A DNA stretch of 64,000 nucleotides from Jannaschia pagri (GTDB lineage: Bacteria; Pseudomonadota; Alphaproteobacteria; Rhodobacterales; Rhodobacteraceae): the NCBI RefSeq assembly GCF_019655435.1, contig NZ_BPFH01000002.1:62001-126000 (forward strand), given 5' to 3'. Each line of letters opens with the position of its first letter. Within the stretch, counting starts at the first letter, position 1. The translations under genes and the position numbers were made by a program. The notes below the pieces were generated by a model. The model had not been told where the DNA came from. It searched no databases and saw nothing but the letters and a program-made list of their open reading frames with translations. Shown here in pieces: positions 47,964-50,367 of this stretch.

Positions 47964-48258
47964 CGGGATCTCCTTTAGATGGCAGGCAGTAAGTGGCGCT
48001 GCCCCCGCACCAAGACAAGGGCAAAGCGCGGCTGTGTCCCATCACTGAGGTGGACCCACCCGACCGGCAGGGGCAGACAATAGCAATCGGATCGCACCGC
48101 GCCCTACCCCTGTCAGCCGCGCAGCACGCAATATGACCCACCCCGTGCATGACCAAGCCACCCGTCAAGTCCACCAAAAGTCTTAGGCCGAGTTTTGCCG
48201 CGCATCGCAAAAGGCCGCTGGATCAAACACTTGCTACGTCACCCGATACCAGGCGCAC

Positions 48259-48277
48259 CTATGCAGATGCTGCATAG
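48259..48277. promoter_or_regulatory. Perfect 8-bp inverted repeat upstream of DUF1127
   Basis: CTATGCAG, spacer ATG, CTGCATAG. It lies upstream of the candidate promoter and may be an operator. No regulator is identified. Confidence 0.4.
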
Positions 48278-48297
48278 CGGCAATGACGAGGCTCCGA

Positions 48298-48328
48298 GTT
48301 GTGCAAACGCAGCATTGGCCCCAAATAT
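48298..48328 (+). promoter_or_regulatory. Candidate heat-shock-type promoter for DUF1127 and RNA array
   Basis: GTTGTGCAA followed after about 14 bases by CCCCAAATAT resembles RpoH-type -35 and -10 elements (CCCCATNT consensus for -10). In Rhodobacter sphaeroides the homologous DUF1127-CcsR unit is transcribed from an RpoHI/RpoHII promoter. The match here is imperfect. Confidence 0.3.
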
Positions 48329-48413
48329 CACTCAACACAGCACGGCGGGTCGAGACAATCCGGTCCAACCGCCAACCGGGGGCACAACGCCCCTTCAAAC
48401 GAAAGGGTCTGTT

Positions 48414-48632
48414 ATGGCTTACACCACCTACGGCAATTCGGCCGCCACCTCCACCCTGCGCGCCCGCGTTGCGGCTCGCCTCGACGCCATCCGTCAGGAT
48501 TGGTCCAAGTGGCGCCTCTACCGCAAGACGTACAACGAACTGTCCGCACTGTCGAACCGCGACTTGGCCGACCTGGGCCTGAGCCGGGCGATGATCGCCT
48601 CCGTCGCGTTCGAGGCCGCTTACGGCGCGTGA
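48414..48632 (+). CDS. DUF1127 protein (CcaF1-like)
   Basis: The 72-residue protein ends in a DUF1127 domain (WSKWRLYRKTYNELSALSNRDLADLGLSR, residues about 30-58), a small Arg-rich helical motif. In Rhodobacter sphaeroides the DUF1127 protein CcaF1, encoded directly upstream of the CcsR sRNAs, is an RNA-binding protein that affects their maturation. Here the first anti-SD hairpin begins 16 bases after the stop codon, the same arrangement. ATG 48414 is preceded by GAAAGGG. Confidence 0.88.
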   Translation: MAYTTYGNSAATSTLRARVAARLDAIRQDWSKWRLYRKTYNELSALSNRDLADLGLSRAMIASVAFEAAYGA

Positions 48633-48647
48633 CCTGACTTTCCCTGC

Positions 48648-49031
48648 GCCGCTTTCCTCCTCCCTTTGAGCGGCTCGGGGACGCAACCTGGCCTTCCTCC
48701 CTTGGCCATGTTGCAGCCTGACGATCCTTTCCTCCCATCGGATCGCAGGTTCCTGGCCCCAACCTCCCTTGGGGTCTTCGAGACCGGACCGACGGCGCCT
48801 TTCTCCTCCCATTTGGGCGTCGTCGGGATCCGGTCGGGAACAACAACGCGCGTGCCGCGTTAGAGATAGACTTCGACGCTTGGCGGTCCTCCCTCCGCCC
48901 AGTCGATTGGACCCGATACGCTGTCCTCCCAATTTGCGTGTCGGTTCCGCTGAAGATGGCCTGCGCTTCCTCCCATATGCGCAGCCATCACACAAAGACG
49001 GCGGTGCCCCTCCTCCCTTGGGCGCCGCCGT
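48648..49031 (+). ncRNA. Array of nine CCUCCC-loop hairpins (CcsR/cuckoo-type sRNAs)
   Basis: Nine consecutive stem-loops each expose CCUCCC: 1, 48648-48674 (loop with CCTCCTCCC); 2, 48683-48714; 3, 48717-48749; 4, 48755-48776; 5, 48782-48835 (long stem, CTCCTCCC); 6, 48873-48906; 7, 48909-48948 (13-bp stem, one mismatch); 8, 48955-48989; 9, 48998-49031 (12-bp stem, CTCCTCCC). Stems differ in sequence but always pair, showing compensatory variation. CCUCC is complementary to Shine-Dalgarno sites. Known relatives are the four CcsR RNAs of Rhodobacter sphaeroides, each of two such hairpins, processed from a transcript with a DUF1127 gene and involved in stress and C1/pyruvate metabolism. Here they may form four or five RNAs; boundaries cannot be set from sequence. 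Confidence 0.88.
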
Positions 49032-49042
49032 TCTTGTTTCTG
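48998..49042 (+). terminator. Terminator formed by the last anti-SD hairpin
   Basis: Hairpin 9 has a 12-bp stem (ACGGCGGTGCCC against GGGCGCCGCCGT, one G-U pair) followed by TCTTGTTTCTG, a U-rich tail. It probably ends the DUF1127-sRNA transcript about 78 bases before the Hsp70-like gene. Confidence 0.75.
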
Positions 49043-49119
49043 CCCCCACCCCGTTGACGACGGCCCGCCGCTGCGCCACAGGCCAGTTTTCTTGAATACG
49101 GGCGGCATAGGGACACCCA

Positions 49120-50367
49120 ATGACGAACATCGGTCACACCCTCGGCATCGATTTTGGCACGTCCAACTCTGCCGCCGCCGTCATGTGCGATGGCCGCGCC
49201 CACCTCATCGAAATGGCGCCCGGAGAAACCGGTCTGCCCACGACGTTCTTCTTTGATTTCGACAGCCGAGAAACCCTAATCGGAACCCCCGCAAACGACG
49301 CCCTTCTCGAAGGACGGGACGGGCGCTTTATGCGGGCGCTGAAACGGGTGCTCGGCACGCCGCTGATGCATGAGCCGCGCCAAATCCTGAATGAACGGGT
49401 CACCTTCGTCGAGGTTATCGGCCGGTTTCTGTCCGAGGTTAAGGCCAGGGCCGAGGCGAACATGGGCCGGTCGTTTGACAGCGTTCTCTCAGGGCGTCCC
49501 GTCGTGTTTCACGGCGCGGATGACCCTCGGGAAGCGCAAGCCGAGGCCGATCTCCGCGCGTGTTATGAGGCCGCCGGGTTCACCCAAATCGCGTTCCTGC
49601 CCGAACCCGAAGCGGCGGCGGTGGCCAACGGCGCCTCTGACCACGCGGGGGAATTGGGCCTGATCGTGGATATCGGCGGCGGCACCTCGGACTTCTCGCT
49701 GTTTCGCGTCACGGAGTCGGGCATCGAGATCCTCGCAACCCACGGCATTCGCATCGGAGGCACGGATTTTGATCGGGCGATCAGCATCGCGGCGGTCATG
49801 CCACTGTTGGGGCGCGGTGGCGTGTTGCGGAATGCGATTGGGGATGGAACGACGCGCGCGCCGAAAGCGATCTTCCACGACCTGGCCACATGGGAAAAGA
49901 TCCCGTTCCTCTACACCGCGCAGAACCGCCGGGCCGTCGCAGAGATGGCCAAGTTGGCCCAGACACCAAAGCCGTTCCAACGCTTGGTGGACGTTCTCAC
50001 CGATGAGCTTGGCCATGATCTGGCCTTTGCCGTGGAGGTCGGAAAAATCGACGCTAATCGGGGCGCGCATGGGGCGCGCATTGACCTTGGTGTCGTCGAG
50101 CGGGCGCTGACGGCCGACCTATCCGCGCCCGCCATGCAGGAGATGCTTGCCCCCCATGCAATGGCCCTACGGGACGGTGCGTTGGACACCGCCGTCCAAG
50201 CGGGGGTCTCCCCTGACCAGGTAGATCGCGTGATTTATGTGGGCGGGTCTAGCCTCATGTCCCTGGTGCCGACGACCATGGCCGAGGTCTTTCCGACCGC
50301 CACCCATGTAACGGACGATGTCTTTTCAGCCGTGACCCGAGGTCTCGCCATGGCAGCGGACCGCTGA
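49120..50367 (+). CDS. Hsp70-like protein, YegD type
   Basis: The 415-residue protein is an Hsp70/actin-type ATPase domain without a full substrate-binding domain: phosphate 1 loop LGIDFGTSNSA (residues about 8-18), phosphate 2 loop IVDIGGGTSDFSLF, GGTDFDRAI and adenosine-motif YVGGSSLMSLVP. It matches the YegD group of short Hsp70 relatives. A chaperone-linked or regulatory role is likely. It follows the stress-type sRNA array on the same strand. Confidence 0.9.
   Translation: MTNIGHTLGIDFGTSNSAAAVMCDGRAHLIEMAPGETGLPTTFFFDFDSRETLIGTPANDALLEGRDGRFMRALKRVLGTPLMHEPRQILNERVTFVEVIGRFLSEVKARAEANMGRSFDSVLSGRPVVFHGADDPREAQAEADLRACYEAAGFTQIAFLPEPEAAAVANGASDHAGELGLIVDIGGGTSDFSLFRVTESGIEILATHGIRIGGTDFDRAISIAAVMPLLGRGGVLRNAIGDGTTRAPKAIFHDLATWEKIPFLYTAQNRRAVAEMAKLAQTPKPFQRLVDVLTDELGHDLAFAVEVGKIDANRGAHGARIDLGVVERALTADLSAPAMQEMLAPHAMALRDGALDTAVQAGVSPDQVDRVIYVGGSSLMSLVPTTMAEVFPTATHVTDDVFSAVTRGLAMAADR

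Follow-up and report, generated by a model that had tools for sequence, protein, structure and literature searches.

Nine tandem anti-Shine-Dalgarno hairpins behind a DUF1127 gene in Jannaschia pagri: a probable stress sRNA locus of the CcsR/cuckoo type

The window analyzed here, a stretch of 64,000 nucleotides of Jannaschia pagri DNA, contains an array of nine stem-loops that each present CCUCCC in the loop and that stand directly behind a gene for a small DUF1127 protein. The whole is probably a stress operon of the CcsR/cuckoo type—that is, one in which the array would be the precursor of small RNAs (sRNAs) that mask Shine-Dalgarno (SD) sequences of mRNAs. Two conserved sequence boxes in the promoter region resemble binding sites of PhaR, a repressor that senses polyhydroxybutyrate (PHB).

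Structure of the hairpin array

All nine of the stem-loops claimed in a preliminary description of this DNA (48648–49031) are present, each with CCUCCC in its loop, and the array extends slightly beyond those limits, from 48641 to 49037 on the + strand. The hairpins comprise 8–17 base pairs each, with energies of -11.4 to -29.3 kcal/mol, and the wobble pairs noted in the same description amount to 11 of the 104 stem pairs. The spacing, on the + strand throughout, is uneven: H1 (48641–48681), H2 (48683–48714), H3 (48715–48751), H4 (48755–48776), and H5 (48789–48826) are followed by a motif-free linker of 51 nt (48827–48877), and then by H6 (48878–48903), H7 (48908–48949), H8 (48955–48989), and H9 (48992–49037). 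H9, together with the interrupted U-run after it, is likely a terminator. Predicted folds lengthen the H5 stem across a bulge by pairing GACCGGA with TCCGGTC (48779–48838), and several loci of the genus have a comparable extension in different letters (GAAGG with CCTTC).

Dinucleotide shuffling of the region, repeated 500 times, gave 0.018 CCUCCC hairpins with E<=-10 on average and 1 at most, compared with the 9 observed; when the loops were held fixed and the rest was shuffled, chance hairpins numbered 0.56 on average and 3 at most, again versus 9. The fold of the whole region has a z score of -10.8. For all nine array sites, the predicted probability of CCUCCC being fully unpaired is 0.93–1.00, with the 32 remaining CCUCCC sites in the window having a median of 0.002 and exceeding 0.5 at 4 sites. 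Since CCTCCC shows no overall enrichment in the window (41 found versus 62 expected), the signal lies in the clustering and folding of the sites. An initial, lenient hairpin detector, which flagged 104 of the 129 + strand CCTCC sites in this G+C-rich DNA, was replaced.

The DUF1127 gene and its surroundings

The gene preceding the array (48414–48632, + strand) encodes a CcaF1-like DUF1127 protein of 72 aa (PF06568, E 2.2e-13), which shares 50% identity across 54 aa with its DUF1127 counterpart at a CcsR1-positive locus, L149. A DUF1127 gene followed by an array was found in 20 of 20 same-genus genomes, that of J. pagri included, and a DUF1127-like ORF lies <=120 nt upstream of the array in 79 of 83 arrays of the family (the family DUF1127 profile was built from 18 proteins of the genus, with two wrong-frame sequences dropped).

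H1 begins 8 nt past the stop codon of this gene. Such close placement, as well as the terminator-like last hairpin, would suit a 3′ UTR element that serves the stability or termination of the DUF1127 mRNA and never acts in trans. Stability, however, needs no invariant CCUCCC loop. Moreover, the same genome has a second anti-SD locus (L003, 1472–1590; contig C5, 341646–341764), with two hairpins (341677–341764) that have CUCCUCCUCCC loops, and no relative of the DUF1127 protein, which has one match in the whole genome, was found there. A purely local role of this kind is therefore considered improbable.

Two ORFs on the plus strand (48666–48863 and 48769–49095) were rejected as coding, with matches in 0 and 1 of the 19 other same-genus loci, respectively. 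A 298-aa ORF on the minus strand (48234–49130) has matches in 17 of these 19 loci; the six matches listed all cover the portion complementary to the promoter and coding region of DUF1127, with three extending into the array. This ORF is treated here as, rather than proved to be, a shadow ORF. The gene after the array (49120–50367) encodes a short Hsp70-like protein, for which the top NCBIfam model, that of the YegD-type chaperone PRK11678, scored far under its cut-off.

Selection on stems and loops

Compensatory changes in the stems, which the preliminary description had proposed to look for in orthologous loci, were found in two hairpins, and they are the two that the formal covariation count covers. 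In an alignment of H5 from 13 same-genus loci, 100% of the cells are paired and both sides have changed at 6 of 12 pairs; in that of the terminal hairpin from 14 loci, the values are 99.1% and 8 of 17 pairs (alignments A1 and A2, drawn from the 20 genus loci after exclusion of those in which the hairpin was missing or clearly different). The earlier claim of selection on both RNA structure and loop was supported.

When arms were swapped among orthologues, a hairpin's own arms paired better in 294 of 306 comparisons for the first hairpin, 238 of 262 for the pre-linker hairpin, 267 of 272 for the post-linker hairpin, and 276 of 302 for the last hairpin (loci L047 and L054 were left out, and two of the four classes comprised 17 loci rather than 18). 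For all nine hairpins of the window, the strongest partner of the 5′ arm is the 3′ arm of the same hairpin (mean -19.1 versus -7.8 kcal/mol). The differences among stems allow each hairpin to fold independently.

Beyond the CCUCCC common to all loops, CUCCUCCC occurs in 3 of the 9 (H1, H5, and H9), and the strict form CCUCCUCCC in 2 (H1 and H9). In counts that are partly fixed by the hairpin-finding procedure, CUCCUCCC is present in 670 of the 701 family-sample hairpins versus 79 of 145 in the 19 other genus loci; with the window included (L038–L057), the genus retains it in 82 of 154 hairpins and CCUCCC in 150 of 154. Judging by these counts, the loop of the genus Jannaschia is shrunk towards its core, and the shortened loops suggest CCUCCC to be the functional core. 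In the loop logo, the outer five stem positions carry ~0.05–0.2 bits of information; the CCUCC core of that logo is fixed by hairpin selection, leaving the flanks as its only informative positions.

These features bear on whether the array might instead be a decoy platform, the loops or stems of which titrate ribosomal subunits or a protein (the DUF1127/CcaF1-like protein or Hfq), or exert feedback on the operon, all without pairing to mRNA. Although the tight linkage of a DUF1127-like ORF to the array (79/83) would agree with such a function, what does not vary is the loop complementary to the SD sequence, with the stem positions being low in information. In addition, the loop has the same letters as the 3′ end of 16S rRNA, and would for that reason pair with the SD sequences of mRNAs and not with the 16S 3′ end itself. 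A decoy is thus regarded as unlikely, if somewhat less so than the 3′ UTR element discussed above, and the loops are taken to be sites of pairing with mRNA.

Array size among relatives

Nine hairpins are an ordinary number. In the 20 same-genus genomes, J. pagri included, arrays have 6–11 hairpins, mostly 7–8, and the usual layout consists of five hairpins, a linker (42–81 nt in 19 of 20 loci; none in L056), and three hairpins, with the last as terminator; the second block in the window has four hairpins versus the usual three. Across the family, 83 of 90 loci from 90 genera have arrays of 3–19 hairpins with a median of 8, 34 having at least 9 and 25 at least 10; no array of three or more was found in the other seven (L075, L112, L119, L121, L131, L138, and L145). 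Layouts among the 83 divide into alternating pairs (23), no linker >=25 nt (22), one linker (22), and mixed forms (16).

The 90 loci, of 207 matching genomes, comprise 30 from the ar14 search and 60 chosen by match strength, so that weak arrays are under-represented and strong matches favored; six other genomes on the list were omitted, and the locus taken from genome G100 is not its best match. Hairpins were counted at E<=-6 with gaps <=140 nt. Hairpins with large internal loops escape the counter (H4 of L042 and of L044 were seen by eye). The counter may also add chance hairpins downstream (L041, L044, and L054), and for L047 it covers only the second of two blocks.

The largest array, with 19 hairpins (L111), is made up of near-identical three-hairpin units of ~140 nt and is, by the likeness of these units, a recent tandem expansion; its closest DUF1127-like stop codon lies 329 nt upstream. 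In the array with 17 hairpins (L120), the stems are mostly distinct. A search of the open-licence PMC literature did not yield a figure for the largest array known. The cuckoo-family paper of Reinkensmeier and Giegerich from 2015 reportedly describes 2 to 4 hairpins.

The preliminary description had viewed the array as expanded, its odd number of hairpins and varied stems pointing to diversified targets. In the corresponding model, every hairpin would have a target set of its own, read by its stem, and the stem sequences, loop lengths, and flanks do vary among hairpins. However, nine is close to the family median of 8, and the CcsR set, with two hairpins in each of its four RNAs, already amounts to eight; the family sample holds many even-sized as well as many odd-sized arrays; and the loop core is constant in all hairpins while the stems drift between orthologues by compensation, which would be unexpected of targeting stems. 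Neither the expansion nor the diversification was borne out, and this model is the least credible of those considered here.

Relationship to known sRNA families

The search with covariance models, proposed in the preliminary description as a check on kinship with the CcsR/cuckoo sRNAs, gave a divided answer: ar14 (RF02344) and CcsR1 (RF02791) came out as the best Rfam relatives, but both remained under their gathering scores. Infernal matched ar14 with E 5.5e-6 and 2.8e-5 (best 40.2 bits versus 58.8 required) and CcsR1 with E 1.6e-3 and 0.013 (best 23.8 bits versus 65.3 required). Four other RNA families—6C, Scr3202, ftsZ-DE, and Mnt IRES—were discarded, all being under the gathering score. 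With a DUF1127 gene upstream and these two sub-gathering families as best relatives, the kinship was upheld, and the window locus is likely a CcsR/cuckoo-type locus.

Matches to ar14 with E<=1e-3 were obtained in 207 of 246 genomes of the family (one per genus), 33 of them over the gathering score, and in 0 of 14 controls; for CcsR1 at E<=1e-4, the numbers were 197 of 246, with 8 over gathering, and 0 controls. The positive control was the CcsR1-positive locus L149, where a DUF1127 protein of 71 aa is followed by eight hairpins arranged as four pairs, in agreement with the description of ccaF1-CcsR1-4 in R. sphaeroides (PMC10253847), and where the promoter boxes are the same as in the window locus. 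In a class-wide draw of 289 genomes, 13 matched (E<=1e-4), four from the same family and nine from outside it, and the hairpin counter found 0–4 hairpins at each of the nine.

The closest described system is the CcsR1-4/ccaF1 locus of Rhodobacter sphaeroides (the 'CIN1 locus', RF02791). According to the accounts consulted, it likewise has a DUF1127 gene followed immediately by tandem hairpins with CCUCC-type loops, and it has an RpoH-type promoter and a terminator hairpin (PMC10253847), to which the RpoH-like pattern and the terminator-like H9 of the window would correspond. CcsR1-4 are reported to arise from the ccaF1 3′ UTR by the action of RNase E, driven by RpoHI/HII, and to have flhR mRNA as a target (PMC10253847, PMC8625941, PMC8307010). 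In loci of this type, the DUF1127 protein aids RNase E in producing the mature sRNAs. They are, however, four RNAs of two hairpins, whereas the window has five hairpins, a linker, and four hairpins, with most loops shortened to CCUCCC and a CcsR1 score of 23.8 out of 65.3 bits; given this layout unlike the four pairs of R. sphaeroides, processing may differ. The alpha-r14/NfeR1 sRNAs of Sinorhizobium meliloti (RF02344; with SmelA075 and SmelA099) are also described as having hairpins in tandem, the anti-SD loops of which are identical and the stems variable, but they are trans-encoded, have an RpoD-type promoter, and contain three or four hairpins (PMC3927594, PMC10746234), in contrast to the nine hairpins behind a DUF1127 gene in the window (40.2 out of 58.8 bits).

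Promoter region and PhaR-like boxes

Upstream of the DUF1127 gene, a sequence of the form TTGTGCA...CCANNT resembles a promoter of a heat-shock sigma factor, the RpoH-like element proper (TTG...CCAAAT) spanning 48299–48326 on the + strand. The window and 18 of 20 genus loci have the pattern TTG-N16-19-CCA[TA]NT, but among the family loci it was seen in no more than 23 of 80, compared with 2.5 in shuffles. For the R. sphaeroides locus, control by RpoHI and RpoHII has been reported (PMC10253847), and RSs0680a is described as RpoH2-dependent (PMC3688512).

Two further boxes in this region are conserved more widely. Box 1 lies in an upstream element (48260–48286, + strand) with the core CTGCATAGCGGCA at 48270–48282, and the genome has no second copy of this element at up to 3 mismatches, nor of CTGCATAGCNGCA. 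Box 2, TTGTGCAAACGCAGC (48299–48313), overlaps the RpoH-like promoter, and the two boxes are 29 bp apart in the window (48260–48313). In the 80 family loci with sufficient upstream DNA and a DUF1127-like stop codon at most 400 nt ahead of the array, box 1 (C[TC]GCAT[AG]GCNGCA, 28–29 bp before the TTG) was found in 64 (0.05 in shuffles) and is absent from 16, and box 2 (TTGTGC[AG]N3GC[AG]GC, at the TTG) was found in 74 (0 in shuffles); both occur in 20 of 20 genus loci. Since the two patterns were derived from the genus alignment, the family counts constitute the test.

The resemblance of these boxes at -35 to PhaR sites suggests an additional control by that repressor. The PhaR site of R. sphaeroides is given as CTGCNNNGCAG, two palindromes are described as flanking the -35 of S. 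meliloti phasin promoters, and the promoter of the sRNA gene mmgR (S. meliloti; a PhaR/AniA target) is reported to hold a site, CAATTGTGCACCGCAGCATTA, that is bound efficiently (PMC12542648). This last site is similar to box 2 of the window, GTTGTGCAAACGCAGCATTG, although mmgR is a different RNA and the inner spacer is one base longer in the window. The window box differs from CTGCNNNGCAG by one base, and box 2 has a spacer one base longer; PhaR also accepts a spacer of four. Exact CTGCNNNGCAG copies precede the DUF1127 gene in 47 of the 80 family loci, compared with 0.5 in shuffles, but in only 5 of the 20 genus loci, compared with 0.2.

The genome has a PhaR gene (PF07879, E 1.3e-27; also PF05233), with a gene for PHB synthase and one for a phasin (PF09361, barely above the cut-off) next to it. 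The promoter region of the phasin gene contains two copies of CTGCATCGCAGCA that are 26 bp apart, and the sole place in the window that matches the 15-letter phasin box with up to 3 mismatches is box 1 of the array promoter (2 mismatches). Box-like 15-mers as such are not enriched, with the window having 1 versus 1–6 in six shuffled windows at <=3 mismatches and 1 versus 0–2 at <=2 mismatches; the shuffled windows being no poorer in such places, only the position of box 1 is telling. Similarly, CTGCNNNGCRGCA occurs 66 times in the genome versus 48 times for the reversed pattern, so that most copies are due to chance. At the second anti-SD locus of the genome, a PhaR-like box with 2 mismatches ends 16 nt before the first hairpin. 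That locus sits behind a gene for a putative metal-ABC-permease-like protein, identified by ORF reading.

It is tentatively proposed, as an idea somewhat more apt to fail than to hold, that the anti-SD sRNA operons of the family are under the joint control of heat-shock sigma factors and the PHB-granule sensor PhaR, with the two boxes, 28–29 bp apart, flanking or overlapping the -35 element. Build-up of PHB would take PhaR off the DNA and, combined with stress, would release many anti-SD loops. The count in the genus and the results from shuffled windows make this proposal slightly less probable. No mention of a link between PhaR and anti-SD arrays was found in open-licence PMC papers, among the matches listed (10 of 357 for the combination of PhaR with CcsR, CcaF1, or DUF1127).

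Proposed mechanism

By analogy with the work on R. sphaeroides, a single transcript would start at the RpoH-like promoter, carry the DUF1127 (CcaF1-like) gene and the nine anti-SD hairpins, and end at H9. Its 3′ part would then be cleaved, most likely in the 48827–48877 linker, to give a five-hairpin and a four-hairpin RNA. The stems would keep the loops open, and would have to differ for each hairpin to fold on itself, with the single-stranded CCUCCC loops being offered to purine-rich ribosome-binding sites (GGGAGG and its kin). Under stress, pairing between loop and SD sequence would lower the translation of a number of mRNAs, and the number of hairpins would set dose or avidity rather than the range of targets. 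PhaR might add a further control through the two boxes at -35.

The genome contains 279 instances of GGGAGG-N4-10-ATG (versus 70 for the reversed pattern) and 308 of AGGAGG-N4-10-ATG (versus 55), which means many possible targets. The GGGAGG counts speak for an explanation of the CcsR type, against which stand the hundreds of SD sites that would match the loops of the array and the presence of strict CCUCCUCCC in just two of the nine loops.

Significance

The array in the window would be one further locus of a known family of stress sRNAs, with nothing unusual in its nine hairpins. Since arrays range from 3 to 19 hairpins and one appears to have grown by tandem duplication, hairpin copy number may be a natural variable of sRNA dose. 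The two conserved PhaR-like boxes suggest that carbon storage and translational control are linked in a simple and testable way. If this link is true, carbon storage would be tied to a multi-copy brake on translation initiation, the strength of which evolves through the copy number of the hairpins.
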